Below, in pieces: positions 1 through 26,888 of a stretch of DNA of 32,055 nucleotides. A program made the translations under genes and the position numbers. The number at the start of each line of letters is the position of its first letter. Positions within the stretch are counted from its first letter, which is position 1. The notes beneath the pieces are model-generated. The model did not search any database, had not been told where the DNA came from, and saw nothing but the letters and a program-made list of their open reading frames with translations. Origin of the DNA: a virus; the IMG/VR virus record IMGVR_UViG_3300048928_000202, positions 1 to 32,055 of that record; one strand, written 5' to 3'.

Positions 1-116
1 ATGTTCTGGTCGTTATCCAGATCTAGGATCCGTGCGAGTTGCGCGCCCGTGATTCCGGCGAACTCCAGTGCTTGACGGAAGCGTTGCCCTTTGAGGCGGT
101 GTGGTTGTTTGCTCAT
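1..116 (-). CDS. Phage repressor, cI/C2 type, N-terminal part only
   Basis: The 38 visible residues begin MSKQPHRLKGQRFRQAL and contain a helix-turn-helix pattern (RQALEFAGITGAQLARIL). The reading frame runs off the left edge, so the rest of the DNA-binding domain and any C-terminal S24 or oligomerisation domain cannot be seen. It is divergent from a Cro-like gene, with 86 bases between the two starts, which is the classic lambdoid immunity arrangement. That position suggests the lysogeny repressor acting on the shared operator region. I see no strong Shine-Dalgarno before the ATG. It could instead be another HTH regulator; the position is the main argument. Confidence 0.7.
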   Translation of the reverse strand, partial: MSKQPHRLKGQRFRQALEFAGITGAQLARILDLDNDQN

Positions 117-135
117 AAACAGGATGTTACAACCC

Positions 136-164
136 TTGCGTCCAAATGATAACAAACGTATTGT
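136..164 (+). promoter_or_regulatory. Candidate PR promoter of the lytic operon
   Basis: TTGCGT (136-141) and TATTGT (159-164) are separated by exactly 17 bases, upstream of the Cro-like gene. Both hexamers are imperfect matches to the sigma-70 consensus. An inverted repeat (151-165) covers the -10 box, as expected for a repressed early promoter. The assignment rests on sequence and position only. Confidence 0.45.
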
Positions 165-1511: not shown

Positions 1512-3730
1512 CTAATCACGAACTTCTCGATGATGTGCTGGCCCAGTTGCAGGACTATGGGCTTAAACCAGAAACCCCACTGGTGATTGGCAAGCGAACG
1601 CGTTGCGAGTGCGACGGCGACAAGGCTATGGAAAAAACCGGCTGGTATGTGATCTATGAGCATCTGACTGGCGGTAAGACACTGTATTGCGGCGCGTTTG
1701 GTGACTGGCGCCAGGGTGAAAAGGGAAGTTGGCAGAAGATTAAGGTCAAGGGTGGCCGGTTGAGCGCTGAGGATCGGGCGGTGATGCGGGCGAGGGCCGA
1801 GGAGGGCCAGCGTAAGGCAGCTGAGGCCGAGGCGCGCAAGCATCGAACTGCCGCGCGCCGAGCTGCGGGTATGTGGAAGCATTTGGAGGAAAAGGGCCAC
1901 TGCGCTTATCTGGATGCGAAGCGTGTGGTCGGTTTCGGCCTGCGTTTTAAACGCAAGTCGGGCTGCGCGCTTGTACCGATGCGCAATGTGAAAACCAGAG
2001 AGGTGATCGGCCTGCAGGTGTTGTTCCCTGAGGTGCAGCCCAAACTGGGGCGTAATAAAACCTATTGGCCGGCGGGCTTGGAGAAAGAGGGGGCAGTTCA
2101 TTTGATCGGCCCTGAGCCTGAGCCTGGTGACGTGATTCTGGTGTGCGAGGGCTACGCGACCGGGGCGAGCTTGCATATGGCGACCGCGCTGACGGTGGCG
2201 GTGTGCTTTGATGCTGGCAATCTGTTGCCGGTGGCGCAGGGGCTACGGGTGCGTTATCCCGGTCGCCCGCTGCTGTTCTGTGCGGATGATGATTGGAAAA
2301 CCCAGGTGCAGGGTAAACCGTTCAACACGGGCAAGGTGAAGGCGGAGAATGCGGCGGTGGTCGTTGGTGGCCAGGTGGTGTTGCCGATCTTCGATAATGA
2401 CCGTGAGGCTGGTTGGACGGATTTCAACGACCTGCACTGTGCTGAGGGTTTAGATGCGGTACGCCGTCAGGTGTTGGCGCTGGTGAGGCCGGCGACAGAT
2501 GCCGGATGGCATGAAAAGCTGCTGCGGTCTGCTAAAGGCGGGATTCTGGCGCACCCTTATAACGTCGGATTGATTCTGGGTAATGACTCGCGCTGGGGCG
2601 GGGTGATTGCGTGGGATTCGTTCGCGTCGAAAATTATTAAGGCGCGCACGCCGCCGTTTGGCGGCAGTGCAGGTGACTGGGAGGATATCGACGATATCAA
2701 GGTGATGATGTGGCTGGCCGAGGTTTACGGGTTGTCTGTGAAGTCGCCGAATGTGTTTGAGGCGGTGAACTCGGTTGCGCACGACAATGCCTTTCATCCG
2801 GTGCGCGAGTATCTGGATGGGTTGGCGTGGGATGGTGCACCGCGACTTGATAGGTGGCTACAGGATCGGCTGGGCGTTGCGGACAGTGAGTACACGCGCA
2901 AGGTGGGTAAGCGCTGGTTGCTGTCTGCCGTGGCACGGGTTTTCCGTCCAGGCTGTAAGGTGGATGTGATGCTCATTCTGGAGGGGTTGCAGGGTGAGGG
3001 TAAGTCGACGGCGGCAGGTGTGCTTGCCGGGAAGTGGTTTATGGATACGGCATTTGATATGAGCAGTAAGGATGCGTATCAGGCGATCCGGGGTAAGTGG
3101 ATCATAGAGATGGCGGAGCTGGATGCGCTGAATAAGTCCGATACGACGAAGGCCAAGCAATTCGTTTCATCGGCTACGGACCATTATCGGGAGAGCTATG
3201 GGCGGCGGCATTTGAGTGTGCCGCGCCAGAGCGTATTTATCGGCACCACGAACCAGGATGAGTACCTGAAGGATGACACGGGCAACCGCCGTTATTGGCC
3301 GGTGACGTGTACGAAGGTGGATCTGGATGGCCTGCGGGCCGATCGTGATCAACTCTGGGCCGAGGCGGTAGCCTGTTTTCGCGCGGGAGATATTTGGTGG
3401 GCCGAGCGTGAAGAGAACGAACTGTTTGCGGCTGAGCAGGATAAGCGCTTCCAGGCGGATATGTGGGAAGAACCAGTGGTTCACTACCTGGCAGCCAAGC
3501 ATCTCGGCGAAACGGTGACGGGCGCGCACTTGTTGCAGCATGCGCTGAATATCGACCCCAGCCACTGGGGCAAGCCTGAGCAAATGCGGATCGGCAAGAT
3601 TATGCATCGGTTGAAATGGCCGCGCCGGCGCCGGAGTAGCGGCCCTGGTGGCGTGCGTGGTTATGAATATATAAAGCCGGCCGAGTGGAAGCGCGGGATG
3701 GTCGAGCCCAGGCAGGAGACTGCATTTTGA
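1502..3730 (+). CDS. Primase-helicase: Toprim domain fused to VapE-type helicase
   Basis: This 742-aa protein is the only replication gene visible. The N-terminal region (about 30-120) holds CECDGD and a charged helix. The Toprim part has VCEGYATGASLH (E216) and LLFCADDD (about 258-264), the acidic metal-binding motifs of a primase. The C-terminal part is a virulence-associated E (VapE/DUF5906-like) superfamily 3 ATPase: Walker A GLQGEGKST (495-503), a Walker B-like WIIEMAELDAL (533-543) and FIGTTNQDEYL with GNRRYWP (579-600). It probably primes and unwinds at the phage origin in the manner of P4 alpha-type proteins. The gene may start at the ATG at 1502 or two codons later at 1508; either overlaps the preceding stop. 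Confidence 0.88.
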   Translation: MGMTNHELLDDVLAQLQDYGLKPETPLVIGKRTRCECDGDKAMEKTGWYVIYEHLTGGKTLYCGAFGDWRQGEKGSWQKIKVKGGRLSAEDRAVMRARAEEGQRKAAEAEARKHRTAARRAAGMWKHLEEKGHCAYLDAKRVVGFGLRFKRKSGCALVPMRNVKTREVIGLQVLFPEVQPKLGRNKTYWPAGLEKEGAVHLIGPEPEPGDVILVCEGYATGASLHMATALTVAVCFDAGNLLPVAQGLRVRYPGRPLLFCADDDWKTQVQGKPFNTGKVKAENAAVVVGGQVVLPIFDNDREAGWTDFNDLHCAEGLDAVRRQVLALVRPATDAGWHEKLLRSAKGGILAHPYNVGLILGNDSRWGGVIAWDSFASKIIKARTPPFGGSAGDWEDIDDIKVMMWLAEVYGLSVKSPNVFEAVNSVAHDNAFHPVREYLDGLAWDGAPRLDRWLQDRLGVADSEYTRKVGKRWLLSAVARVFRPGCKVDVMLILEGLQGEGKSTAAGVLAGKWFMDTAFDMSSKDAYQAIRGKWIIEMAELDALNKSDTTKAKQFVSSATDHYRESYGRRHLSVPRQSVFIGTTNQDEYLKDDTGNRRYWPVTCTKVDLDGLRADRDQLWAEAVACFRAGDIWWAEREENELFAAEQDKRFQADMWEEPVVHYLAAKHLGETVTGAHLLQHALNIDPSHWGKPEQMRIGKIMHRLKWPRRRRSSGPGGVRGYEYIKPAEWKRGMVEPRQETAF

Positions 3731-4086
3731 TCCCTGAAATGGATGAGATGTTGAAGTTGTGGGCGCTCGATATGCATGGCTGTGGAGGTGCAAATGGATC
3801 TGCTAGCACCATGTTGGGCCAGTTGATGGATTGCAAGGGAGAACTGATTCGTGGCACACGCGGTGGTTCGAGGATGTTACTGCCATGGAGTGCGGACATT
3901 GAGGTGATAGTAAACAAGCACCTGTCTTGGCAGCTGGAGCAGGTGGTGTACGAGCAATACCTAAACCGTGAGAGCGCAGAGCGTCAGAAGTGGGCACATT
4001 GTGGATGCGGACGTACGCAGTTCTATGAGCGCTTGCATGCTGCCCATCTGGAGATCGCAGGTATGTTGCTGGAGCGCGCAGCGTGA
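3727..4086 (+). CDS. Q-like late antiterminator candidate
   Basis: The protein (119 aa from the TTG start, 115 from ATG 3739) begins IPEMDEMLKLWALDMHG after the initiator. It resembles small Pseudomonas phage proteins annotated as antitermination or ArpU/Q-like. The C-terminal half (QVVYEQYLNRESAERQKWA, then CGRTQFYERLHAAH) looks like a sigma-region-4 type HTH. TTG 3727 is favoured because AGGAG ends 8 bases before it and it overlaps the preceding TGA as TTGA; ATG 3739 is 20 bases from that site. Downstream lie a promoter and terminator arranged like pR'-tR', which supports a role in releasing late transcription. The function is inferred from context. Confidence 0.65.
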   Translation: MIPEMDEMLKLWALDMHGCGGANGSASTMLGQLMDCKGELIRGTRGGSRMLLPWSADIEVIVNKHLSWQLEQVVYEQYLNRESAERQKWAHCGCGRTQFYERLHAAHLEIAGMLLERAA

Positions 4087-4396
4087 TCATGCTGTTTGGC
4101 CGGCCTGGCCTACTGGTGTTATCGCTGGTGGAGCAGGCGCAGGCAGCGCCAATCGGGGGTTTGACCTTCCGTCCCACCTTTTCCGGGATTTCCCCGCGTA
4201 GTGCGCGTACCTACGCGCACGCGCATCACGCGCAGCGTTTATTAATCTCTCTCTATACGGGGGAAAAGGTAAGAAATAGTAGGACGGTAGGTCAGCGCTT
4301 TGATTTTTGGGGGCTGCAAATGGCGCACCTGTCTTTAGTTGTGTGGGGCTGGTCGGTCACTGCCCTGCGGGGCGGTAGCCAGTTACGTTATATGTC
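4087..4396. other. Noncoding stretch after the Q-like gene
   Basis: I find no supported gene here. A frame from 4083 to 4412 could encode 109 aa, but it has no recognisable domain and crosses the repeat region. A near-perfect inverted repeat (GTGCGCGTA/TACGCGCAC) lies at 4201-4220, followed by more GCGCACGCGC-like sequence and a short AT-richer piece (4239-4290). It is probably untranslated sequence leading into late control elements. Confidence 0.5.
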
Positions 4397-4467
4397 CGTT
4401 GATTGCCGTTGATTGCCGGTGCGTGTCCGTTGATGGCCGTTGATTGCCGCTGATGGCCGTTGATTGC
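4397..4467 (+). repeat. Iteron array: six 10-base direct repeats
   Basis: Units with consensus CGTTGATKGC lie at 4397-4406, 4407-4416, 4428-4437, 4438-4447, 4448-4457 (CGCTGATGGC) and 4458-4467. An 11-base spacer (4417-4427) separates units 2 and 3. Ten-base phasing puts every unit on about the same DNA face, as in protein-binding arrays. The array sits 20 bases before the candidate late promoter. It could bind the Q-like protein or serve as replication-origin iterons. Confidence 0.75.
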
Positions 4468-4469
4468 GG

Positions 4470-4498
4470 GGTGGCAGCGTCAAACGCTTGCTGCCACC
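4470..4498. repeat. Palindrome overlapping the late promoter -35 box
   Basis: GGTGGCAGC (4470-4478) and GCTGCCACC (4490-4498) are perfect 9-base inverted arms around 11 bases. The right arm includes the candidate -35 hexamer TTGCTG. No T run follows, so it is not a terminator. It could be an operator or structured DNA at the promoter. Confidence 0.6.
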
Positions 4499-4516
4499 GG
4501 ATTGGAGGGGTATAAA
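4488..4516 (+). promoter_or_regulatory. Candidate late promoter (pR'-like)
   Basis: TTGCTG (4488-4493) and TATAAA (4511-4516) are spaced by exactly 17 bases. Transcription would start near 4523 and reach a terminator about 36-60 bases later, before the holin gene. A short terminated leader downstream of a Q gene is the hallmark of lambda-type late control. Confidence 0.6.
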
Positions 4517-4558
4517 TCAGTCATGTTCAAAGAGGTACGCAACCAGCGACCTCACCAC

Positions 4559-4583
4559 AAACCCGGCCCTCGCGCCGGGTTTT
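4559..4583 (+). terminator. Leader terminator before the holin (tR'-like)
   Basis: AAACCCGGC and GCCGGGTTT form a 9-base perfect stem around CCTCGC, with TTTT at its 3' side and another T run shortly after. It separates the candidate late promoter from the lysis and structural genes, so antitermination would be needed for late expression. Confidence 0.75.
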
Positions 4584-4603
4584 CGCGTTTATGAGGCCGG
4601 GAA

Positions 4604-4948
4604 ATGACGAACGAACAGCAAGCGCTGGCAGAAATGCCGATCTGGTTAGTGATCGTCCTGGCCCTGGTGGGCGGTGTGTCGGGCGAGATGTGGCGTGCGG
4701 ACAAAGAAGGGGCTCGGGGTTGGGCGTTGATCCGGCGTTTGGCTCTTCGTTCAGGCGCCTGCGTGGTCTGCGGGGTGTCGGCGATCATGCTGCTGTACGC
4801 GGCGGGCATGTCGATCTGGACATCTGGTGCGATTGGATGCCTGACAGCGATGGCAGGCGCAGATGTGGCGATCGGGTTGTACGAACGATGGGTGGCCAAG
4901 CGACTGGGTGTGAATGAGGCGTCCGCCGATGTCCAGTCAGAACAATGA
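4604..4948 (+). CDS. Phage holin, class I type
   Basis: This is a 114-aa membrane protein with three hydrophobic segments: about 13-27 (IWLVIVLALVGGVSG), 50-67 (SGACVVCGVSAIMLLYAA) and 74-92 (GAIGCLTAMAGADVAIGL). Its C-terminal tail is charged. The length and three-helix topology fit the phage_holin_3/LydA-like holins of Pseudomonas prophages, which form inner-membrane holes that release the endolysin. It is the first gene after the leader terminator and lies far from the endolysin and Rz genes (26905 onward), so the lysis functions are split. Confidence 0.8.
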   Translation: MTNEQQALAEMPIWLVIVLALVGGVSGEMWRADKEGARGWALIRRLALRSGACVVCGVSAIMLLYAAGMSIWTSGAIGCLTAMAGADVAIGLYERWVAKRLGVNEASADVQSEQ

Positions 4949-10155: not shown

Positions 10156-10179
10156 CCGCGTTCGCGGCAGTCGTCATAG

Positions 10180-10201
10180 CCCGCCCTGTGCGGGTTTTTT
10201 T
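10180..10201 (+). terminator. Intrinsic terminator between protease and capsid genes
   Basis: CCCGC and GCGGG arms around CCTGT are followed by seven T. The AGGAGG of the capsid gene begins 7 bases later. It lies inside the late operon and so should be read through by antiterminated polymerase. Confidence 0.7.
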
Positions 10202-11545: not shown

Positions 11546-11566
11546 GCCCCGCCCAGGCGGGGCTTT
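11546..11566 (+). terminator. Hairpin terminator after the capsid gene
   Basis: GCCCCGC and GCGGGGC form a perfect 7-base stem with loop CCAG, followed by only TTT. The short T run suggests a leaky terminator or an mRNA 3'-end stabiliser for the highly expressed capsid message. Confidence 0.5.
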
Positions 11567-15731: not shown

Positions 15732-15748
15732 CGGATCGACTAACCATG

Positions 15749-15771
15749 GCCCGCCAAGTGCGGGCTTTTTT
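15749..15771 (+). terminator. Intrinsic terminator between sheath and tube genes
   Basis: GCCCGC and GCGGGC around CAAGT are followed by six T. The core from CCCGC to GCGGG is identical to that of the terminator before the endolysin gene. The AGGAG of the tube gene follows within 5 bases of the T run. Confidence 0.75.
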
Positions 15772-24329: not shown

Positions 24330-24349
24330 GATAGATCCCTGACGCCCGG

Positions 24350-24371
24350 CCCGCAAAAGCGGGTTTTTTTT
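24350..24371 (+). terminator. Intrinsic terminator after the first fibre gene
   Basis: CCCGC-AAAA-GCGGG is followed by eight T. The TGGAG of the next fibre gene begins within 5 bases. It is the strongest internal terminator of the late operon by T-run length. Confidence 0.8.
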
Positions 24372-26864: not shown

Positions 26865-26888
26865 AACCCGCCAAGTGCGGGTTTTTTT
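26865..26888 (+). terminator. Intrinsic terminator before the endolysin gene
   Basis: AACCCGC and GCGGGTT around CAAGT are followed by T residues to 26888. The hairpin core is identical to the one before the tube gene. A TGGAG ribosome site follows within 5 bases. Confidence 0.8.

Follow-up and report, generated by a model that had tools for sequence, protein, structure and literature searches.

The window, i.e., the whole 32,055-base stretch of DNA that was analysed, is a virus record of IMG/VR. Genes for portal, capsid, contractile tail sheath and Mu-like baseplate proteins are found in it, and its source is a temperate Pseudomonas phage with a contractile, R-pyocin-like tail. The locus of interest includes, in order, a primase-helicase gene, a small gene (3727-4086), about 0.3 kb of further DNA, a set of direct repeats, an inverted repeat, a promoter, a terminator, a holin gene and the remainder of the late operon. 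The holin gene (4604-4948, plus strand; Phage_holin_3_5, PF16085, E=1.4e-54) is the first late gene, and the operon that it opens (4604-28261, plus strand) spans about 24 kb with HNH, terminase, portal, protease, capsid, tail sheath, baseplate, endolysin and Rz genes. The operon also carries, on its coding strand, five terminator-like hairpins (10178-10196, 11546-11563, 15748-15766, 24348-24365 and, directly before the endolysin gene, 26865-26883); gene gaps make up 4.5% of the late-operon sequence, yet hold all five. Expression of the capsid, tail and endolysin genes would be shut off stepwise if no processive antiterminator acted. An open reading frame at 4083-4412 has no family match and was treated as non-coding, and a plasmid search with the regulatory region returned 0 matches.

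The direct repeats (4391-4474, plus strand) are 7-8 phased units of 10-11 bp with the consensus ATTGnn(n)GTnn(n). The same rule describes the pyocin P-box, the repeats of 10-11 nt that are bound by the activator PrtN (PMC4905994; PMC8609362), and the array has the at least about four fitting units by which a P-box is recognised. From their sequence, the repeats are a P-box and the predicted site of PrtN. Tandem Repeats Finder reports 4396-4467 with a period of 10 and 7.1 copies, while a repeat search finds seven in-register copies spaced 10, 10, 11, 10, 10 and 10; one unit is degenerate. The first-pass annotation had seen six phased 10-base repeats, of which the phasing stands and the count does not, as there are 7-8 units and one step of 11 bp. 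The repeat unit is CCGTTGATTG, which from ATTG on reads ATTG-CC-GT-TG. A chain score built on the P-box rule reaches 11.5 at 4381-4480, a value attained by none of 5000 first-order Markov sequences (maximum 8.5) and the highest on either strand of the whole 32 kb, where the next independent place scores 4.5. The comparison of repeat number among relatives that had been proposed for this site bears out a variable array: its length is 43/44, 53, 63, 73 or 83 bp with fixed flanks, so that whole 10-bp units have been gained or lost.

The window begins inside the repressor gene (3-155, minus strand) and therefore lacks the left phage arm and the PrtN gene, of which no copy is found in it. PrtN (PF11112) is, however, encoded in all 20 related virus contigs examined; in a near-identical relative (G001) some 6 kb separate the PrtN gene, which lies beyond the repressor, from the homologue of the small gene downstream, and the equivalent position of PrtN would fall outside the window. 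Among Pseudomonas genomes with loci of this kind, PrtN is found in 5/6, and one P. protegens genome carrying such a locus gave no PrtN match. In clusters with an altered repeat, an 11-bp period persists (combined Z of 12.5 at lag 11 and 2.9 at lag 10, in an exploratory test that took the best of 13 lags). Promoters L152-L217, which have TAAAAA as the -10 box and belong to tailocins and phages of the P. fluorescens group, carry an 11-bp phased array with an altered unit (e.g., GTTGCACCCGT), which suggests PrtN specificity groups.

Between the array and the promoter is an inverted repeat, GGTGGCAGC-N11-GCTGCCACC (4470-4498), a predicted dyad operator whose right arm lies over the -35 element. 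The arms (4470-4478 and 4490-4498) are complementary at 9/9 positions and 11 nt apart; the 9-base palindrome on the -35 box noted earlier thus keeps its arms and its overlap, but is an interrupted inverted repeat and not a strict palindrome. The conserved core is TGGCA-N15-TGCCA, present in the phage and tailocin promoter groups and missing from the R/F-pyocin promoters. The inverted repeat may serve as an operator or as a second loading site. The divergent locus L137 has another inverted repeat, AACCGAAA...TTTTCGGTT (about 3150-3185), at the same position, as if the operator had changed with its protein. A sigma-54 promoter (TGGCA...TTGC) was considered and rejected, as the spacing is 10 bp and about 5 bp is expected.

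Promoters located 3' of homologues of the small gene were collected from virus contigs and Pseudomonas genomes and aligned on the -10 box, which gave 113 promoters from phages, tailocins and the R and F pyocins; these fall into 25 clusters that share less than 85% identity. In the window the -35 element is TTGCTG (4488-4493, plus strand), the spacer is the 17-bp ccaccggattggagggg (4494-4510) and the -10 element is TATAAA (4511-4516, plus strand), exactly the sigma-70 promoter at 4488-4516 that had been called from the sequence. A promoter scan with a strict consensus found 0 promoters, as TTGCTG-N17-TATAAA is too weak to pass it. In 112 of the 113 promoters the -35 element has the same TTG, a count that is partly biased, since the anchoring was by a score that favoured TTGCTG, a downstream hairpin and, at one offset, GGTGCG. 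The spacer is more conserved than its flanks (mean major-base frequency 0.74) and is similar within promoter groups and different between them. By analogy with alpB and its ABE, the spacer is a candidate loading site at the QBE/ABE position.

Transcription is predicted to start at 4523, and the hexamer CATGTT at -1 to +5 (4522-4527, plus strand) is a -10-like pause element within the initially transcribed region. Its second and sixth positions are A+1 and T+5 in every promoter (113/113) and every cluster (25/25), and neither was used by the anchoring score. In the alpB promoter of P. aeruginosa, the -10-like CACGAT occupies -1 to +5, and mutation of A+1 or T+5 harms AlpA-dependent antitermination (PMC9371919). 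The divergent L137 has this same CACGAT at the equivalent position. An elemental-pause-like TACG follows at +14 to +17 (4536-4539, plus strand), with TRCG at +13 to +18 in 109/113 promoters (a count partly biased by the same anchoring score); the elemental pause sequence of sigma-dependent pausing sits near +16. The major-base frequency is 0.90 at -1 to +5 and 0.53 at +18 to +30, and this drop in conservation past +17 points to a DNA pause and not to an RNA structure.

The predicted fold of the 68-nt leader has an energy of -27.2 kcal/mol (z = -4.1, reached by 0/200 shuffles), and an Rfam search of it gave no family. It includes an accessory hairpin, GAGGTaCGC...GCGACCTC (4532-4553, plus strand), which is common in relatives but not universal: the 5' half, which holds the pause, is conserved, whereas the 3' arm is variable and is lost in L048, L167 and L216. 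The hairpin is thus unsupported as a conserved functional part. Farther downstream is the tR'-like intrinsic terminator AAACCCGGC-CCTCGC-GCCGGGTTT (4559-4582, plus strand) at +37 to +60, in agreement with the terminator 36-60 bases past the start that had been predicted, and a few tens of nucleotides downstream as at Q/AlpA-type antitermination promoters. A strict terminator scan of the window missed it because its U run is short; relatives keep the terminator and have longer U runs, and a GC-rich terminator (CCCGGC...GCCGGG) lies 3' of the pause in nearly all of the linked promoters. L163 of Pseudomonas yamanorum, a natural variant of the switch, has a leader without the usual GC-rich terminator, rearranged after the pause and with T-rich runs.

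The small gene upstream (3727-4086, plus strand; start TTG 3727 or ATG 3739) encodes a candidate Q/AlpA-type antiterminator. Its product belongs to the 'PA0613 family' of NCBIfam (NF051483, E=5e-51, 171.9 bits against a curated cut-off of 100 bits) and matches phrog_4300, a family of unknown function; a Pfam search gave no match. The NCBIfam name is taken from the uncharacterised PA0613 gene of the P. aeruginosa R/F-pyocin cluster, which we take to lie 3' of ptrB and 5' of the holin gene PA0614 and to be part of the ptrB operon. The order ptrB, PA0613, holin is seen in L138. Both prtN and ptrB are repressed by PrtR (PMC6429228). In the literature searched, no published experiments on PA0613 were found, searches for pyocins or tailocins with antitermination returned nothing on PA0613, and the titles and abstracts of papers that mention PA0613 hold nothing on its function.

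Membership of PA0613 in the 82Q family (PF06530) is rejected by profile comparison (hhalign probability 0.1%, E 0.79). This is unsurprising, since AlpA, Q21, lambda Q and 82Q have no sequence homology to one another (PMC9371919). AlphaFold models (pLDDT 76 and 79) have confident C-terminal helices resembling sigma region 4, with low confidence at residues 20-48, and sigma region 4 domains are the best matches in a fold search. The fold sought, that of Q21 and AlpA, is an N-terminal ring with a C-terminal helix-turn-helix; Q21 (6p18, 6jnx) and AlpA (7xya) are among the matches, at non-significant E-values of about 1-7, so that the likeness is a lead only. A search of solved structures by sequence gave chance ankyrin matches only. 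The label 'Q-like' given to the gene in the first-pass annotation is a guess at function: the antiterminator-like position holds, while no homology to 82Q and no significant fold match to Q21 or AlpA were found.

What is observed is the set of elements, how well they are conserved and which genes lie around them; the reading that we favour, with a probability of about two in three, is that this late promoter is under two keys, PrtN at the P-box and a PA0613-family antiterminator at the sigma-dependent pause. From known PrtN biology, failure of the repressor would allow the phage PrtN to bind the P-box, one unit per helical turn, and to activate the weak sigma-70 promoter. As the conserved cis elements suggest, RNA polymerase would then pause about 16 nt downstream through renewed binding of sigma to the -10-like CATGTT (-1 to +5), and polymerase lacking a second factor would stop at the terminator 37-60 nt past the start. 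The PA0613-family protein, made from the adjoining upstream gene, is proposed to load on the promoter-paused polymerase as Q and AlpA do, and the loaded polymerase would resist the leader terminator and the terminators within the 24-kb late operon. PA0613 would play the same part in the R- and F-pyocin clusters. It is probable that PA0613 represents a new family of Q-type antiterminators of Pseudomonas prophages, tailocins and R/F pyocins that forms an AND gate with PrtN. The late switch of pR'-tR' layout that had been put forward for the locus is in this way supported in part, and the comparison adds the conserved signature of a sigma-dependent pause. The P-box itself is already known; no description was found of a P-box coupled to a Q-type leader next to PA0613, and the two-key switch and the role of PA0613 are new as candidates only.

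The arrangement shares features with several known systems. With the S, R and F pyocins of P. aeruginosa it has in common the direct repeats of 10-11 bp fitting ATTGnn(n)GTnn(n) upstream of the promoter and a PrtN gene in the same element (here in relatives); it differs in having 7-8 units where four are usual, and in an array that lies about two turns upstream of the -35 element with an inverted repeat in between. With AlpA/alpB, also of P. aeruginosa, it shares the pause element at -1 to +5 with A+1 and T+5, a terminator within 60 nt, lysis genes as the first genes, DNA-damage activation and the host genus; by contrast, no P-box is described at alpB, the AlpA binding element GGGACGN5GGTA is absent from the spacer of the window and PA0613 is of a different protein family. 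Like lambda Q/pR'-tR', Q21 and Q82, the locus has an antiterminator-like gene adjoining the late promoter, an early pause, a leader terminator, a lysis gene next and a long late operon, while the activator array is absent in lambda. The GafY/GafZ system of the Caulobacter gene transfer agent (PMC11150451) has a similar two-tier logic, with one activator and one antiterminator for a phage-derived cluster, but uses other proteins, needs IHF and has no P-box.

Pyocin clusters provide further examples of the layout. The R-pyocin leader (L213 of PA7; L138) has P-box-like repeats, the pause element and a terminator, and the F-pyocin genes of PA7 (L219), 13 kb away, have a second site with the same three features. 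Of 18 genomes with PA0613, 16 have the R-pyocin pause pattern, as against none of 7 that lack the gene, a co-occurrence of gene and promoter that linkage alone would partly give; the two genomes that have PA0613 and no match to the R-type pattern are G027 and G029. The same two-part switch beside PA0613 implies that PA0613 acts likewise in these clusters, so that one key may not be enough for pyocin production. The S-type pyocin promoter of PA7 (one example) differs from the window in having a P-box followed by neither pause nor terminator. In a time course after UV, pyocin S4 is expressed early and the R2 genes late, along with the AlpA-antitermination regulon (PMC12796719). This order is predicted by the two-key model; other causes are possible. 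If the model is true, the lag of R2 behind S4 is explained even though both need PrtN, an unannotated gene of the pyocin cluster gains a function, and R- and F-pyocin production, not just phage late genes, depends on antitermination. For work on bacterial warfare and explosive lysis, the R and F pyocins serve as standard models, with PrtN as their textbook switch. The phage would, moreover, combine array-type activation and Q-type antitermination at one promoter.

The alternative that deserves most weight, although we consider it unlikely, is that PrtN bound to the P-box drives the late operon alone, with a terminator that is leaky or overrun by strong initiation and with PA0613 as a co-activator or an unrelated sigma-4-like regulator. 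PrtN is indeed the sole established activator of pyocin genes, and the best fold matches of PA0613, to sigma region 4 domains, would suit such a regulator. This account, however, leaves unexplained the invariant A+1/T+5 with TRCG in 25 clusters, the terminators within the operon and the late rise of R2 relative to S4, and the S-type promoter of PA7 demonstrates a P-box promoter without pause or terminator. That same promoter has no terminator to overcome, and so speaks against PrtN as the antiterminator itself, binding the array and travelling with polymerase while PA0613 does other work. PrtN and the array always accompany these promoters, but the array lies upstream of -50, outside the -35 to -10 interval of known loading sites; we regard this version as improbable. 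The earlier suggestion that the repeats load an antiterminator is accordingly given up for one of activation, since the PA7 S-type gene has its P-box without pause or terminator.

Still less probable is an RNA attenuator, in which a leader hairpin competes or signals and RNA folding sets read-through with no loaded protein. Most loci have a predicted hairpin and the leader as a whole folds well, but conservation is confined to the 5' half with the pause while the 3' arm varies, and no Rfam family is matched. Least credible of all, and rejected, is the other function once suggested for the repeats, that of iterons of a replication origin, or of a partition site. Phased iterons near a primase-helicase gene would suit an origin; the array, however, matches the P-box for a PrtN that related contigs encode, is fixed in position relative to the promoter in >100 loci and recurs at the non-replicating R/F and S pyocin genes, while no replication initiator that uses sites of this kind was found and the GC content at the array is ordinary.

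Two further sites flank the regulatory region. A non-coding block (4100-4380), kept in all PA0613 loci read and located directly 3' of the primase-helicase and PA0613-family genes, includes a 39-nt imperfect inverted repeat (4162-4200 and 4256-4294) flanking TTTATTAATCTCTCTCTATACG, and is a candidate replication origin or other structured site. At 4591-4610, close relatives (L007, L009, L011, L035 and L039) carry unrelated first late genes, while the regulatory region is constant; the joint just 3' of the leader terminator is likely a recombination point of lysis modules.
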